From Halorhabdus sp. CBA1104 (lineage in GTDB: Archaea > Halobacteriota > Halobacteria > Halobacteriales > Haloarculaceae), in contig NZ_CP033878.1 in the NCBI RefSeq assembly GCF_009690625.1, positions 372,001 to 436,000 on the forward strand: DNA of 64,000 bases, written 5' to 3'. The stretch's first letter is position 1, and each line of letters begins with the position of its first letter. The translations under genes and the position numbers were made by a program. Shown here piece after piece: positions 4,449-16,915 of the stretch. The notes under the pieces were generated by a model that was given only the letters and a program-made list of their open reading frames with translations, searched no databases and had not been told where the DNA came from.

Positions 4449-5742
4449 GCCGTTGCCTGTCTCGCGGGAACAGCACCGCTTCGCGGATGTTCTCCAGCCC
4501 GAGCATCGTCATGACCAGGCGCTCGCCGCCAAGGCCCCAGCCAGCGTGTGGCGGCATGCCGTACTTGAACATCTTGGTGTAGTACTCGAAGGCTGACGGG
4601 TCCAGGCCCTGCTGTTCGAAGCCGTCGACGAGGTGGTCGTGGCGGTGTTCACGCTGCCCGCCCGAGACGAGTTCCATCGAGGGGTGCATCATGTCGAAGC
4701 CCGTCGAGAGTTCGGGATCGTCGTCGTGATCCTTGATGTAGAAGGGCTTGATCTCGCTGGGCCAGTCGGTGATGAAGTAGTGCTCGCCGACAGCCTGGCC
4801 GAGGGCGTGTTCGGCCTCCGTCGAGAGGTCGTCGCCCCACACCAGCACGTCATCGAGTTCGCCAGTGGCGTTGACGCGCTCGATGGCCTCCTCGTAGGTG
4901 AGCCGCGGGAAGTCGCCCCCGGGAACTTCGAAGTCCTCGGCCAGGCCGAGCGTTTCGAGTTCCTCGGCGCAGTTCTGTGCGACGCCTTCGTAGGCAGCTT
5001 TCACGACTGTCTCGCAAGCGTCCATCGCCTCGGTGTGGTCGTAGAAGGCCGACTCGAAGTCGATCGAGGTGGCTTCGTTGAGGTGCCGGGGCGTGTTGTG
5101 CTCTTCGGCACGGAAGATCGGGCCGATCTCGAAGACGCGTTCGAGGCCGGAGCCGACCATCAGCTGCTTGAACAGCTGGGGGCTCTGATTCATGAACGCC
5201 TCTTGGCCGAAGTACGTGATCGGGAACAATTCGGTTCCGCCCTCGGTCCCGGTCGCGACGATTTTCGGCGTGTTGATCTCCGTGGCGTCCAGGCTGCGGA
5301 ACGCCTCCCGGACGGAGCGAAGGATCTCCGCGCGGATCTCGAAGATGGCCTTGACCTCGGACTTGCGGAGGTCGAGCGTCCGGTTGTCCAGGCGAGTCGG
5401 GAGTTCGGCGTCGACCTTGCCCGACGGGTCCAGTGGGAGTTCGGGATCGGCGGGCGCGATCACGTCGAACTCCTCGGGCGTGATCTCGACACCGGTCGGC
5501 GCGCGTTCCTCGTCTTCGACTGGTCCGACCACGCGGACGACACTCTCCCGATGGACGTCGAGTGCACTCTCGACGATTTCCTCGGGCAGTTCGTCTTTCT
5601 CGATTTTGATCTGGATCTTGCCGGTCTGGTCACGGAGGATCAGGAACGCGATCCCGCCGAGGTCTCGGATCTCGTGTACCCAGCCCGCGACGGTCGCGGT
5701 CTCTCCTGATTTGGCTACAGCAGCGTACGTCCGATCGTGCAT
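4438..5742 (-). CDS. aspS: Aspartyl-tRNA synthetase
   Basis: Archaeal-type AspRS of 434 residues, charging tRNA with aspartate. The N-terminal OB-fold anticodon-binding domain is clear ([21 protein letters not shown]). Class II motif 2 appears as [17 protein letters not shown] and motif 3 as [20 protein letters not shown] with its invariant arginine. Length is normal for the archaeal form that lacks the bacterial insertion domain. Whether it also charges tRNA-Asn cannot be judged from these motifs alone; gatB at 20.5 kb means an amidotransferase is present. Monocistronic, with its own TATA-like box. Confidence 0.97.
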
Positions 5743-10504: not shown

Positions 10505-13500
10505 TCAGGCGGACAACTCGGTCTGCCACTCCCGGATTCGATCCGCACTGACCCCCTGGACGTCACCGGCGATCGTGTCGGGATCGACAGCTTCGAGATC
10601 TTCGGGCGCTTCGACGCCAACGTCTTCGAGTTTTTCGGCAGTCGCCGGGCCGATGCCGTCGATGTCCTCCAGTTCTTCGACGGCATTGCGGGCCTGGAAC
10701 TCTTCGTAGTTGCAGATCGGACACCCCAGTTCCCAGGGCTCGTCGTCCCCGTCGTCGTGGACTTCGATGTGTGGTAACTCGTGGTCCTCGCAGGTCGCCT
10801 CGGTCACGACGATCTCCCCCCGGCGGGGCAGCGGCAGCGAGTACTCACAGTCGGGATAGCGCGTACACCCGACCAGGCGCGAGCCCGATCGAAGGTGTTT
10901 GATGGCCAACTCGCCGCCCTCATCTGTCTCGGCGGCTTCGCCGCCTCCGTTCCGGTGCTCCGCTGGAGCACCGCTAGCCCCGCACTCGGGACACGTCCCA
11001 ATCACCTCGTCCTCGCTCTCGTCGGCTGCCTCGGCCTTGCAACGCGGACAGCCGTGGACGAACGTGTCCCGACCAGCGAGCATCTTGACGTGCTGGAGGT
11101 CGTGATCCTCGCAGGTTTCGTCTATCACCTGTGGCTCGCCCGAACTCGGCAACGGGAGGGTGAATCGACATTCGGGGAACCCATCGCAACCGACGAAGTG
11201 CGAGCCGTGGCGGCTCTCCCGGACGAGCAGGTCCTCGCCACACTCCGGACAAGGCCCCAGGGTCCGATCGGCCTTCAGTGACTCTTGTAGGAAGTCGCCG
11301 ATCTCTTCGCGCGAGGCGCGAAGTTCCTCGAAGATCTCCCGGAGCATCTCTCGGGACTCGGCGGTCACGTCTTCCAGGGCCACGTCACCGTCGGCAATCG
11401 CTGTCATGTCAGCCTCCAGTTGGGCCGTCATCTCGTCGCTGACGACGTGATCGGCGTACTCTTCGGCGGCCGTGACGACCGCCTCTGCGAGTTTCGTCGG
11501 CCGGGGTGGGTCGTCCTCGACGTAGCCGCGGTCGTAGAGTTTCTCGATGATGTTGTGCCGTGTGGAGTTGTGAACTACGACTCCACCTTCGACGGCGAAG
11601 TTCGGCGCGTCTGGGTCGACGGTGAGGTCGTACACGGGCCCGTCGTATTCCCGTCCGATGACATCAATAACGGTCGAACCTGACGGGTAGCCGAGAACGG
11701 CGGCGAAAATCGAGTCAGCGAATCCGTCAGCTACGTATCGGTTTTGACTACCAGTTTCAACCTCACGCGTCGTGAGATAATCCTCCTCGCGGAGCGACCG
11801 TATCAACGCTTCGGTCCGACTTACGGACAGGCCGGTTCTGTCGGCGAGTTCGCTGCTTGAGCGCGGTGTCTCCGCAGCGGCTTCGAGAATCCGCGCCTTG
11901 TGGCGAGTCACGTCGTACTGCTTGAGTCCGTCCAACCCACGATAGAACTTCTCGTCCGCGGCAACCGGAATCGTATCGAAAAACTGCTCAAGGTTGTTTC
12001 GGCCCCTGATGTGTAGTTTGTGCTGCTCGGTCGACAGTGTCGTTTCGATGCCCCAGGACTCGAGCATCGTCGCGACTCCGGTCAACAGGTCGTGGTCCGT
12101 ATTCGAAATGAACGCCTTCCGTTCTCGAGAGGTGTGGCCCTCATCGTCGAACAGTGCACCGACAAACACCGGCTGTAGCGGCTCCGGGACTGTCGGACAT
12201 CCGTCAGTCGTTATCGTCTCGAGCAGATACTGGAGCACTCGGCCGACAGCTCCCGGCAGAGTTACCTGATACTTTGTCCGATGGGCCTCGTCCCGTTGTT
12301 GCCGTTCGGAAACCGTCGGTGCGATACCGAACAGCGCCTCAATGTCTCGGACGAATCGGTCGATGAGTCGTCGATCGGTGTTGTGGTACCGGACGTCGAC
12401 TGTGTTTTCGTCGGTGTTCACATGGATTGATCCATCGCCGAGAAGATTTGCCAGAATTCGTGCCAGCTCTGGACTCCACCGGACCGGGAACGGATTGTCG
12501 AACCGTAGATCGTAATTCAATCCGTGCAACTGCTCGGGCCGGATCCCGAGTTCGCCTAGCAACCACACTGGAACGTCTCGTTTTCCGGTTTCATACTCGC
12601 TGATGGCCGCTTGATCCGTCCCGTATCGCTCAGCGAACGACCGCTGTGTCTCGCCGAGATCTTCCCGATGGTCGCGAAGTTCATTCGCACATCCAGCCCC
12701 ATACAGCTTCGAGTGTATATCACAGCTGTTTGCGAACTCCATCCACTGGCAGACGACCGACGGGTCGTTGCGGTCCCAGCTTCCATCGACAGCTGGGCGT
12801 GTCGTCAGTACTTCGTCGCCGGGAGCGATCGTCCCAGCGTTCCGGACCTCGATCCCGGTATCGGATCGGACGTATACGGGGTGATCATCAGTGACTGAGA
12901 GTCGTCCATTCGTCGTCGTGATCTCGATGATCTGTTCGTCTTCCGCGAGCGGACGTTCGCTGACGAGCGTCTGTTCGCGCTCCTCCAACCTGCCGTGATC
13001 TTCGACGAACGACAGCGTCGTCGGCCCCTGTTCTGTCGTCGCAATATCCGTATCCCCGTCCGCCAGTACAACGCTCCCACGCTCGAACAATTCTGACACT
13101 GCTGTCCGTACGATGTCCCCGTTGCGATCCCTGTGTAGTACCTTCGTGTCCGATGTCAGGCACTTCGTTCCGATCCCCAGTTGTTCCATCCGCTCGATCA
13201 GCCGTGATTGGCCGTATCGCCGGGGTGGCTGGGTTTGCTTGGCTTCCAGTTCGACGTCGCTGATCGCGAGTTCGTCGCCCTCCTCGACGGCGGGGACGAA
13301 CGTCTCGCCGGCCGAGGAGTACGGGTAGACGGCGTGGTATCCCTCCTCGATCAGCCGCTTGCCGTTTGCCTTCAGCGATCGCCCCTCGCACTGGGCGACG
13401 ACGCGGAGGTGTGCCCAGGTGGCCGGTTGTGCGACAGTTGCGAAGAACCGCCGGACGACGAGTTCGTAGACTTCCCAGGCATCCGCACCGATTTCGTCGC

Positions 13501-14637
13501 GGTCGGGGATCTCGCCGGTCGGATGGATCGGCGGGTGGTCGGTCGACTCGTTGTCGCCGCGGGTCGGTTCGATGTCCTCGTTTTCGAGCAAGCTCTGGGC
13601 GTCGTCGCCGAACTCGTAGTTGCCTTCGAAGGCTTCGAGTAGCTCCTCGGGATCGAGATCGTCCGGATAGACCGTGTTGTCCGTCCGGGGGTAGGTCATG
13701 TACCCGTCGGTGTACAGTTCTTCGGCGATCGACATGGCGCGTTGAGCAGAGTAGCCCAGCGAGCCGGCCGCCGAAATGAACGCGGTCGTATCGAAGGGGG
13801 CCGGCGGGTCGTCGGTCCGCGTCCGTCGGCGGACTTCCGTGACAGTCACCCGATCTGTGTCCGCGAGATCCGCGTGTGCCGCTTTGGCGGCCGATTCGTC
13901 CCAGATGCGTTCGGCCTCGCTGCCGTCGTCGTCGTAGAAGTACTGGGCCTCGAAGGCGTCGCCGTCTTTCGCGAGGTCTGCGACGATCTCCCAGTAGTCG
14001 TCCGGCTCGAACGCTTGTATTTCGCGCTCGCGGTCGACGAGGATCTTCAGCGTCGGGCTCTGGACTCGGCCGACGGAGATGAAGTCGTTCCCCAGTTGCT
14101 TCGCTGAAAGGGAGAGAAACCGCGTCAGTGCTGCTCCCCAGATCAGATCGACGATTTGGCGGGCTTCCCCTGCCGCGGCGAGGTCGAAGTCGATCTCGTC
14201 CGGGTTCTCGAAGGCCTCACGGACTTCCCGCTCGGTGATCGAGGAGAAGCGGACGCGTTCGACGGGTGCTTCAGTCTCTTCGCGGATCAGCTCGTAGGCT
14301 TCTTTGCCGATGAGTTCGCCCTCGCGGTCGTAGTCTGTCGCGATGACGACCCCTCGGCCGTCCGCGCGAGACTCCGTAGCGTCGCGACGATGTTCTCGCG
14401 GGTTGGCGTCGTGACGACGTCGGCGTCGATCAACTCGACCGGTTCGACGTCCCGCCAGTCCTCGTATTCGGGCGGGAAATCGACGCCGACGACGTGTCCC
14501 GAGAGGCCGACGACACGCTGGCCGCCCCATCGGTAGACGTTGACGCCGTTTTGCCGCTCGGCGTTCGCTGATTCGCCACTGAGGATCTCGGCGATCCGCC
14601 GAGCGGCATTGTCCTTCTCGGTGACGATCAGGCGCAC
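10505..14637 (-). CDS. topA: DNA topoisomerase I (type IA), with intein and a frameshift
   Basis: Type IA topoisomerase that relaxes DNA by single-strand passage. The N-terminal Toprim domain starts at the GTG at 14637 (RLIVTEKDNAARRIAEIL). At the run of four C at 14350-14353 the frame shifts; adding one base joins it to VVIATDYDREGELIGKEAYE. The active-site tyrosine is in YMTYPRTDN. An intein (11567-13162) splits the conserved GIGTK/STRHNII region. The C-terminus has several C4 zinc ribbons (CPECGEDLL; CEDHDL with CPRC; CPECGAS; CPICN) and a helix-hairpin-helix end (IDGIGPATAEKLEDVG). The single open frame 10505-14665 begins with out-of-frame residues and is not the true start. Because the rest is intact, a base-calling error is more likely than loss of function. 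Confidence 0.93.
11567..13162 (-). other. Intein in TopA with LAGLIDADG endonuclease and HTH domains
   Basis: A 532-residue in-frame insertion beginning at Cys (CLTSDTKVL, block A, codon 13162-13160) and ending in His-Asn (VVVHN, codon 11569-11567), followed by Ser of the C-extein. Block B shows VTDDHPVYV. Between blocks B and C lies an XRE-like helix-turn-helix (TQRSFAERYGTDQAAISEYE). Two LAGLIDADG motifs follow (LANLLGDGSI and FVGALFDDEG) with both acidic residues kept, so the homing endonuclease may be active. A winged-helix-like part (SELADRTGLSVSRTEALIRS) precedes block F (YDLTVDPDAPNF), where the usual His before Asn-Phe is Pro. Removal restores the GIGTK-STRH topoisomerase motif. Confidence 0.93.
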
Positions 14638-14854
14638 CGCCGATCACCACCGGCAGGCTGGTCACTCATTATGCCTCGCTACGCGGAGAACGTCCCATAT
14701 GTCTTTCGGCGACAAAATCGCCCGACTGCGGCGGGACAAGACGCGCACGCGTTACTCGCGCGCATGCGCTGTCGACGTGTTGACCGATGTGAACTCGTCA
14801 CAATAATCGGTGTCGATCGACTCCATCGAGATAGCCGTCTCGCGCACAGGAACC

Positions 14855-16915
14855 TCACCTGCTGGTGTGTTCGCTCTCGACCGGGGGCTGTGTGCACTCG
14901 ATTTCGAACCTCGCGCCGCCGCTTTCGCTCTCCGCGAGTGAAATCTGCCAGCCGTGGGCCTGGACGATGTCCGAGACGATAGCGAGACCAAAGCCCGTCC
15001 CGTCTTGACTCGTCGTGTATCCTTGCTCGAATACACATTCACGCTCCTCGCTCGGAACGCCGCTGCCAGTGTCTTCGACGTAGAACCCACGCTCCTCGGA
15101 GAGGGGACCAACTCTGACGGTCAGACTAGCCGACTCATTATGCTCGATACTGTTTCGAAAGAGGTTCTCGAAGACGTTGCGCAGACGATTCTTGTCTCCG
15201 TTCAGTTGCAGGGACTGTTCGATCACGAGCGCTCCGTTAGCGGTTTCGACACTGCTCCAGGCGTCACGGGCGAGCGTTTCGAGATCCACGGGTGTCCTCT
15301 CAGTTACCGTCTCTCCGGATCGGGCCAGCGTGAGTGAATCCTCGATGATCTGTTCCATGCGGTCGAGTTGGCGCTGGATCGTCTCAATAGAGTCCGAATG
15401 ACCCTCGCCAACGTCTGCCGTGAGCATTTCGAGGCGCCCAGTGGCGACGTTCAGCGGATTCCGGAGATCGTGAGAGACGATGCTGGCGAATTGATCGAGA
15501 CGTTCGTTCTGCCGTTCGAGTTTTCGCTTTTGCTGTTGAGTCTTCGTTATATCCCGCACATTTAGCACGACCCCTTCGACAAACGGGTCCTCGAGTAAGT
15601 TTCTCGCTCGTGCTTCGATAACTCTCCACTCCTCGGCCGAGTTGCGGACCCTCACTCTGTACGTACTGGTGTATCCGTCCTCGTCGATGTATTCGGCCAG
15701 ATCCGAGCGGATCGTCTCTCTATCAGCAGGATGGACGCGTTTGGCGACGTTTTCACCGATCAAATCGTCCGTTTCGTACCCGAGTATCTCCTCGACCGAT
15801 TGACTGACGTGTGTTATTGTTCCGTCTCCGTCGATAATCGCAACCATATCCGAGGACTGCTCGATGAGTCGCTTGAATCGCTCCTCGACAGCGTGGCGCT
15901 CTGTCACGTCACGGTAGATGAATATCGACCCTCTCGGTGTGCCGGTCCTGTCGGTCAGTGTCGTCCGGCTACTATCGAAAAACCGGACGGTATCGTCGGT
16001 CTCGACGGTCACGTCAGTACTGGAATTCTCATCGCTGTCACGCAAGCAGTCGAACGAGGGAATGACCTCAGCAGCGGGCTGTCCGAGAAAGTCCTGCTTT
16101 TGGGTGCCCAAGAGTTCTATCCCTGCTTTGTTTATATCGATGACACGATCGTCGATGTCGACGACGAAAACCGGATCGCTCATCTCGTCGACGAGCGTGT
16201 GTCTCGCGACGGGAACCAAATCAAGGAAGTCAAACCGAAACAGTGCGATTGCGACGACGATACCGGTAATCGTACTCGCGAACGCTGTTGGATCCCAGGC
16301 TGCCGATGGGTTCCCGTACAGCAACAGTATCATCGAACCCACGAACGGCAGCACGCCGCCAGACAGTATCAGCAGGACTTACGTGCGATACCGACCGCCT
16401 CGGTTGAGTCCGACTTCCGCTATCAGCCCATACGTCACAACGATCAACACGTATGTATATGCGATATTCACCCAGACGAGTGGGCTGTCGACGCGGTTGA
16501 CCGATGCAACTGGTGCTGTTGTGGCGAATCCCTTTACGGTCCACAGGAGATCGTGCATCGGTGCGGTCACGACGAGGACGAAGGCGATGGCTGGCCACGC
16601 CAGCAACAGTATCCACCGCCGCGTGGTGAGCAGCGAATCTCTCCCGGTGTAGGTTACGCCGAACCAAAGTTGCGTGGGTCCGAGTCCAAGGATGCCGGCA
16701 TATTTGACGACGGTCCCAGCTCGATACAGTGTAAGGGTCTCACTCGCTGCTCGGACGCCGGCTCCTAGCGTGTACAGTGATATAGCGACCATCACGGCAG
16801 CAAACGGGATCGCGCCCCGGACTCCCTGCCGGCGCGCAGCGATAATCGCAATGCCTATATTGATACCGGAGACGACGAGTAAAATCCACGTTGGTAGCCC
16901 AGCTGTGAATCCCAC
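14855..16915 (-). pseudogene. 7TM-PAS-PAS histidine kinase interrupted by an in-frame stop
   Basis: One histidine kinase gene cut by a TAA at 16381-16379 in an otherwise continuous frame. The N-terminal part is a 7TM histidine-kinase sensor domain (LPTWILLVVSGINIGIAIIA onward) ending at NRGGRYRT before the stop. The frame continues VLLILSGGVLPFVGSM, then two PAS domains (VDEMSDPVFVVDI; LIEQSSDMVAIIDGDG), the H-box SIVSHDLRNPL and an ATPase domain with DTGSGVP and GTGFGLAIV. A CAA codon (Gln) would restore the reading, so this is a substitution, not an indel. The start is uncertain: GTG at 16915 fits the first helix, and ATG at 17041 is upstream in frame. The ATG at 16354 could still make a 499-residue kinase lacking most of the 7TM domain. 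Confidence 0.8.

Follow-up and report, generated by a model that had tools for sequence, protein, structure and literature searches.

The topA gene of Halorhabdus sp. CBA1104 is interrupted by a complete intein of 532 amino acids in which a LAGLIDADG homing endonuclease lies between an XRE-type helix-turn-helix (HTH) on its N-terminal side and a MarR-like winged helix on its C-terminal side. Its motifs identify the element, found in the 64,000-nucleotide stretch of DNA analyzed here (the window), as a mobile-type intein that is predicted to splice TopA. The best explanation of its architecture, and one that we regard as probable, is a homing intein whose XRE and winged-helix arms aid binding to the homing site and influence the choice of cleavage sites. 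Three points on the window allele are new: a derived Ser at the +1 position, an altered wing, and a frame break in the host gene.

Layout and splicing domains of the TopA intein

The intein occupies positions 11567..13162 on the minus strand. Translation of the frame from 13162 to 11567 meets no stop codon and gives a protein of 532 residues that starts with CLTSDTKV and ends with VVVHN, and which could be aligned with 18 full-length relatives. The flanking TopA sequences read LGIGTK upstream and STRHNIIEK downstream. An earlier sequence-only reading had placed an intein of this length here, and the open translation bears it out. The order of domains is Hint-N, XRE HTH, LAGLIDADG endonuclease, winged helix, and Hint-C.

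The Hint-N splicing half (residues 1-125; 12788..13162, minus strand) carries Cys1 and the T91xxH94 motif and is β-rich in the structural model. The Hint-C half (residues 486-532; 11567..11707, minus strand) holds block F with Pro520 and the terminal H531-N532. All motifs of a class 1 intein are thus present, namely Cys1, T91-D-D-H94 in block B, H531-N532, and Ser+1, in agreement with the splicing blocks A, B, and F/G recognized before. The NCBIfam profile intein_Cterm scored 23.6 against a cut-off of 15.6, while intein_Nterm stayed 0.1 bit under its cut-off (24.4 against 24.5) and the Pfam profile Intein_splicing was also under (29.1 against 35.8). In a fold search the window intein matched mini-inteins with Z of about 20 and an rmsd of about 2. 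The AlphaFold model used for this purpose was built with 19 sequences and had a mean pLDDT of 86.3 over the whole intein and a pTM of 0.87; in blocks of ten residues the HTH helices were mostly at or above 90 and the wing (461-480) at 73 and 78. The proline in block F was earlier singled out as unusual. It is indeed there, as P520, but it is invariant in 19 of 19 aligned alleles, so it is no oddity of this intein and could be ruled out as a defect.

The endonuclease and the two HTH domains

The homing endonuclease domain (residues 223-410; 11933..12496, minus strand) was recognized by the Pfam profile LAGLIDADG_3 in two stretches with an E-value of 7e-14 and 52.3 bits (cut-off 22.5). Its acidic residues D243 and D339/D340 support the two LAGLIDADG motifs described earlier, and D243, D339, and D340 are invariant across the 19 aligned TopA inteins. 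Columns were called near-invariant if at least 17 of the other 18 alleles agree; at none of the 70 such columns in the endonuclease did the window allele differ, and we predict from this that its endonuclease is intact.

The XRE/Cro-type HTH (residues 158-205; 12548..12691, minus strand) is located between block B and the endonuclease. Two Pfam profiles scored above their cut-offs, HTH_31 at residues 160-198 (28.5 against 27) and HTH_3 at residues 162-196 (25.4 against 23). A profile of the 19 alleles searched against the PDB matched this first HTH to HipB, the ICEBs1 Xre regulator (ImmR), C.BclI, and a 434-repressor variant, and the AlphaFold model has helices at residues 159-168, 173-180, 184-192, and 199-205. 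When the XRE part was predicted alone, using 10 of the 19 alleles, the pLDDT was 88 and nearly all of the matches listed were XRE/Cro-CI-type HTH proteins. These fold matches had Z scores of at most 7.3, in the range below 8 that may reflect a mere common arrangement, and the Foldseek matches were modest (best E-value 0.017). Profile and model together confirm an XRE-type HTH fold in the TopA intein.

The winged helix (residues 415-480; 11723..11920, minus strand) sits between the endonuclease and Hint-C. Here Pfam HTH_IclR scored just above its cut-off (22.3 against 22) and MarR_2 under it (23.3 against 27). The 19-allele profile matched this second HTH to the MarR-type regulator AdcR (E-value 2.8e-5) and to ZitR, and the MarR/ArsR-type winged-helix proteins ST1710 and SmtB matched the model of the whole intein with E-values of about 0.01. 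In the AlphaFold model, residues 417-478 follow the order helix-helix-helix-strand-strand. A MarR-like winged-helix fold after the endonuclease is therefore confirmed by Pfam, PDB profile searches, and AlphaFold. For the two segments in which the sequence-only reading had suspected an XRE-like HTH and a winged helix, structure prediction and HMMs thus agree on an HTH fold.

The wing itself (residues 460-479; 11726..11785, minus strand) is altered. It has six residues less than the shortest of the 18 other alleles, and the motif GSNRS, present in all 18 of these and followed by NR in most of them, is absent; the window allele has GSQNR. Five of the 17 near-invariant columns of the winged helix are changed, all in the wing; in the allele with the next most changes the figure is 3 of 18. 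An alternative gap placement aligns GSQNR with GSNRS and gives fewer changed columns, leaving the shortening unaffected. With its helices kept but its wing shortened and GSNRS lost, the winged-helix arm of the window allele has probably changed its contact with DNA, and its binding is probably different or weaker.

Distribution and spread of the TopA inteins

The alignment of 19 full-length TopA inteins comprised the window allele, one from a Haloarcula MAG, and those of 17 genomes; one intein identical to another in the set and two partial matches were left out. The Pfam profiles HTH_31 and HTH_24 (E-value ≤0.01) matched all 19. Matched residues were given for the window allele only, and the alignment shows both HTH regions in every member, so the comparison with other haloarchaeal TopA inteins proposed at the outset places both domains throughout the family. 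Mean pairwise identity was 65% for the endonuclease, 47% for the XRE part, and 51% for the winged helix.

Among 392 genomes of the haloarchaeal order, the TopA site was filled in 19, by a full-length intein in 18 and by a mini-intein in one. Intein-free alleles, which the earlier reading had proposed to look for, are common: the other 373 genomes each gave at least one strong match to the joined flanks, the matches listed being contiguous over residues 1-135 and the rest judged by E-value. These include the six congeners in the genome sample, all intein-free at this site. A single insertion site in topA was used among the carriers found.

Conflicts between the intein tree and the TopA tree indicate horizontal spread. 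The intein L010, from family f1, groups with f7 inteins (support 100/98) and its TopA groups with f1, while L020 has a TopA within f7 (100/100) and an intein outside the f7 group. For homing itself, this conflict and the patchy occurrence of the intein are indirect evidence. A virus or plasmid as carrier of the intein was rejected, as no homologue was found at E-values ≤1e-5 in 50,697 phage and 72,556 plasmid records and none of 132 pattern stretches in viral contigs was confirmed as an intein homologue. A phylum-wide search at E-values ≤1e-25 matched six of 392 genomes, and each of these belongs to the haloarchaeal order already sampled. At this threshold it did not recover more remote TopA inteins, for instance that of Methanotorris, which appears in the accessible text of PMC4071816.

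Proposed role of the HTH domains

In the mechanism that we propose, the Hint halves would splice TopA back together, as their motifs suggest, and the LAGLIDADG domain would cut intein-free topA at GTK|(S/A)TRH. Repair from a filled allele would then copy the intein into the cut gene. On either side of the endonuclease, the N-terminal XRE domain and the C-terminal MarR-like winged helix may act as accessory arms that contact the DNA surrounding the homing site and adjust the set of sites that the endonuclease cuts. The intein would have entered a lineage with an Ala+1 topA, and the Ser most likely came in with a short co-converted patch.

The most likely role of the HTH domains is homing-site recognition. 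A natural mini-intein at the TopA site of another genome (G013, contig C146, about 4976-5476) runs from Hint-N to Hint-C without XRE, endonuclease, or winged helix, and their joint absence implies that all three most likely form a homing module. In the TliVMA intein, deletion or grafting of the accessory domain changes the cleavage sites, according to the available part of the study by Beyer and Iwai (2022, PMC8966425). Together these observations fit target recognition better than autoregulation. The same part of that report describes the TliVMA accessory domain as directing an extra cleavage site and as seemingly adding no affinity alone, so for the TopA arms the term specificity arm may have the wrong sign.

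Extra DNA-binding modules could instead form an autoregulatory device, with the excised or unspliced intein binding and repressing the topA promoter and so tying intein expression to that of the topoisomerase. XRE and MarR domains mostly occur in transcription regulators, which speaks for such a device, as does the appearance in the fold search of WhiA, a LAGLIDADG-HTH transcription factor (Z 12.7, 193 residues aligned, rmsd 3.2). A precedent for an endonuclease that represses its own promoter is I-TevI, as far as the accessible text of PMC3943268 goes. WhiA is a stand-alone LAGLIDADG-HTH protein, whereas the version in the TopA intein is embedded in Hint, and the WhiA profile was not among the Pfam matches listed for the intein at E-values ≤1. 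No inverted repeat of at least 10 bases with arms within 40 bases was present upstream of topA (window positions 14600-14860), which is weak evidence against repressor binding. The only mini-intein found lacks the HTH domains together with the endonuclease, a pattern not expected if the HTH domains brought a regulatory advantage of their own, and we regard autoregulation as quite improbable.

Another possibility is that the HTH domains have no part in DNA binding and only keep Hint and endonuclease apart, as passive scaffolding or as remnants. The shortened wing without GSNRS would fit this, as would the XRE part, with few conserved columns (6) and an identity below that of the endonuclease. 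In a comparison of the window allele with its relative L007, dN/dS was 0.36 for the XRE part and 0.63 for the winged helix, at a dS close to 1. Against mere spacing, the eight other relative pairs, which are close and share members, gave ratios well below 1 for both domains (XRE 0.08-0.20 in seven pairs and undefined in one; winged helix 0.00-0.24 in all eight), values that fit purifying selection on both HTH domains among close relatives. The wing motif GSNRS is kept in every other allele and full HTH folds are retained in the AlphaFold model. Scaffolding therefore appears unlikely, and binding at the homing site is the role that we prefer. HTH accessory domains have been proposed to help inteins find new sites and solved examples are few; the TopA family offers a comparison set with the two-arm version in 19 alleles, a mini-intein, and the window allele with its changed winged-helix arm.

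Origin of the +1 serine

Splicing chemistry demands Cys, Ser, or Thr at the +1 position. In the window this residue is encoded by the TCC codon at 11564..11566 (minus strand), and Ser+1 was found in every filled allele read, that is in the 19 full-length alleles and in that with the mini-intein. The 30 empty alleles that were read had Ala in 16 cases and Ser in 14, and all six congeners sampled combine an empty site with Ala+1. In the tree, the window TopA is nested among these Ala congeners, with L036 as its sister (100/98), so its Ser+1 is derived.

A DNA pattern for GTK-Ala-TRH matched 163 of 392 genomes and none of the 19 with a filled site (Fisher p 4e-5, which overstates independence because the genomes are related). 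The pattern agreed with direct reading at all 30 loci that were inspected, the other matches being taken from the pattern alone. A backwards control pattern matched 7 genomes, and the 163 may accordingly include a few chance hits.

To trace the flanks we used 41 diagnostic sites within 300 bp, each with one base common to all six congeners and a different one common to three f7 carriers. The window equals the congeners at 38 of these sites and the f7 carriers at three (-7, 0, and +227), of which -7 and 0 are the two that flank the insertion. In the bin from -15 to 0 the average identity was 96% to the three filled f7 alleles (100% to one of them) and 83% to the congeners; from 0 to 15 it was 89% and 80%, respectively. 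Ten of the 14 bins beyond ±15 favor the congeners, three tie, and one (-45 to -30) favors f7. Since site 0 is forced by splicing, independent support for a patch consists of one synonymous site (-7) and the local identity, and the distant site +227 also matches f7.

Our preferred reading is that co-conversion during homing most likely brought Ser+1 into the window topA, judging from these sequence comparisons; a point mutation from GCC to TCC could also have produced it. A bolder and tentative proposal, possible at best in our view, is that the intein crossed a splice barrier: it would have invaded a topA with Ala+1, a residue that cannot support splicing, and brought along its own Ser in a tiny co-converted patch, with diagnostic sites at -30 and +16 as its bounds. 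The homing apparatus that tolerates such acceptors would be a bipartite address, with the XRE domain on the N-side and the winged helix on the C-side of the endonuclease. If this were true, the Ala+1 alleles (163 of 392 genomes by the pattern) would act as a natural but leaky defense against the TopA intein. With both Ala and Ser occurring at empty sites, one can test whether a splicing residue limits intein spread and whether co-conversion bypasses that limit.

The host topA gene

The C-extein, with zinc ribbons, HHH, and the stop codon, covers 10505..11566 on the minus strand, and the N-extein covers 13163..14637. Comparison with congeners revealed a frame break in the N-extein near 14350-14353, where the window has one base fewer than the six congeners, next to a GGGG run. 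The frame of the TopA start (14637) is consequently not that of the toprim part. When ORFs of congeners were compared with the window, topA was split across frames and several long ORFs were matched unbroken; two other congener ORFs, one in each of two loci (L066 and L084), likewise gave fragmentary matches in more than one frame. Because of the adjoining G run a sequence error is possible, and the break is either that or a real lesion. With topA out of frame in the assembly, its expression is uncertain.

The missing base and the altered wing could together point to decay of both the intein and its host gene, with topA frameshifted and mobility lost. That all 70 near-invariant endonuclease columns are kept argues against decay of the intein, and the position of the break beside the G run weakens the case for a decaying host gene. 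A flank search of the window genome returned two matches, the number expected from a single topA in two halves, and so indicates no spare copy. Degeneration of this kind is in our judgment rather unlikely.

Comparison with other HTH-containing inteins

The nearest solved intein chains in Foldseek were PI-TkoII, PI-PfuI, and TliVMA. The best whole-chain match was PI-TkoII (PDB 2cw7), intein homing endonuclease II of Thermococcus kodakarensis (E-value 1.4e-17), which aligned with the window intein with a Z of 21.6 over 410 residues, but with an rmsd of 20.8 and 16% identity. It shares Hint, LAGLIDADG, and an HTH-like accessory domain with the TopA intein and has a further domain IV, as stated in the accessible part of PMC8966425; its host is a DNA polymerase, unlike that of the TopA intein. 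TliVMA (PDB 7qss) likewise combines Hint and LAGLIDADG with an HTH accessory domain, which the same part of that source likens to the 434 repressor.

The TopA intein belongs with the homing endonuclease inteins that carry an HTH, as its HTH is joined to Hint and endonuclease and an accessory domain is located between endonuclease and Hint-C. In VMA inteins, so far as the accessible text of PMC8966425 describes them, the accessory domain occurs between the endonuclease and Hint-C, in TliVMA only there, and the winged helix of the TopA intein (residues 415-480) is in the same place. The link between Hint and the first LAGLIDADG helix of TliVMA is, by the same description, a loop of 28-32 residues, whereas in the TopA inteins this place is taken by the folded XRE domain.

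No intein with the order XRE, endonuclease, and winged helix was found in the literature searched, in which subscription journals were thinly covered. DNA topoisomerase I inteins are known from Halobacteria, with four listed in the accessible part of Soucy et al. (2014, PMC4071816). The comparison of that survey's topA allele with ours extends to the host gene.

The MCM (cdc21) inteins share Hint, LAGLIDADG, and HTH_3 with the TopA intein. Twelve non-TopA intein stretches from the same order were translated; eight of them, all from MCM inteins, were scanned, and in each HTH_3 scored above its cut-off. Their similarity to the window intein is remote and mostly in the endonuclease. The best HTH_3 stretches are C-terminal to an endonuclease domain, and no bracket of XRE, endonuclease, and winged helix occurred in the eight MCM stretches scanned. 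HTH accessory domains are thus of a known kind, familiar from VMA and MCM inteins, of which the two-armed layout represents a variant. The suggestion that the novelty of the window intein lies in its accessory domains accordingly holds for the layout only, given that both domains are family-wide (19 of 19) and that HTH domains occur in MCM inteins and in an intein already studied by experiment. The MCM inteins at loci L025-L034 have HTH_3 after the endonuclease domain, with three matched stretches in L031. The window genome has an MCM gene as well (contig C1, around 2320711), with a frame of 2608 amino acids that contains several intein splicing matches and HTH_3.
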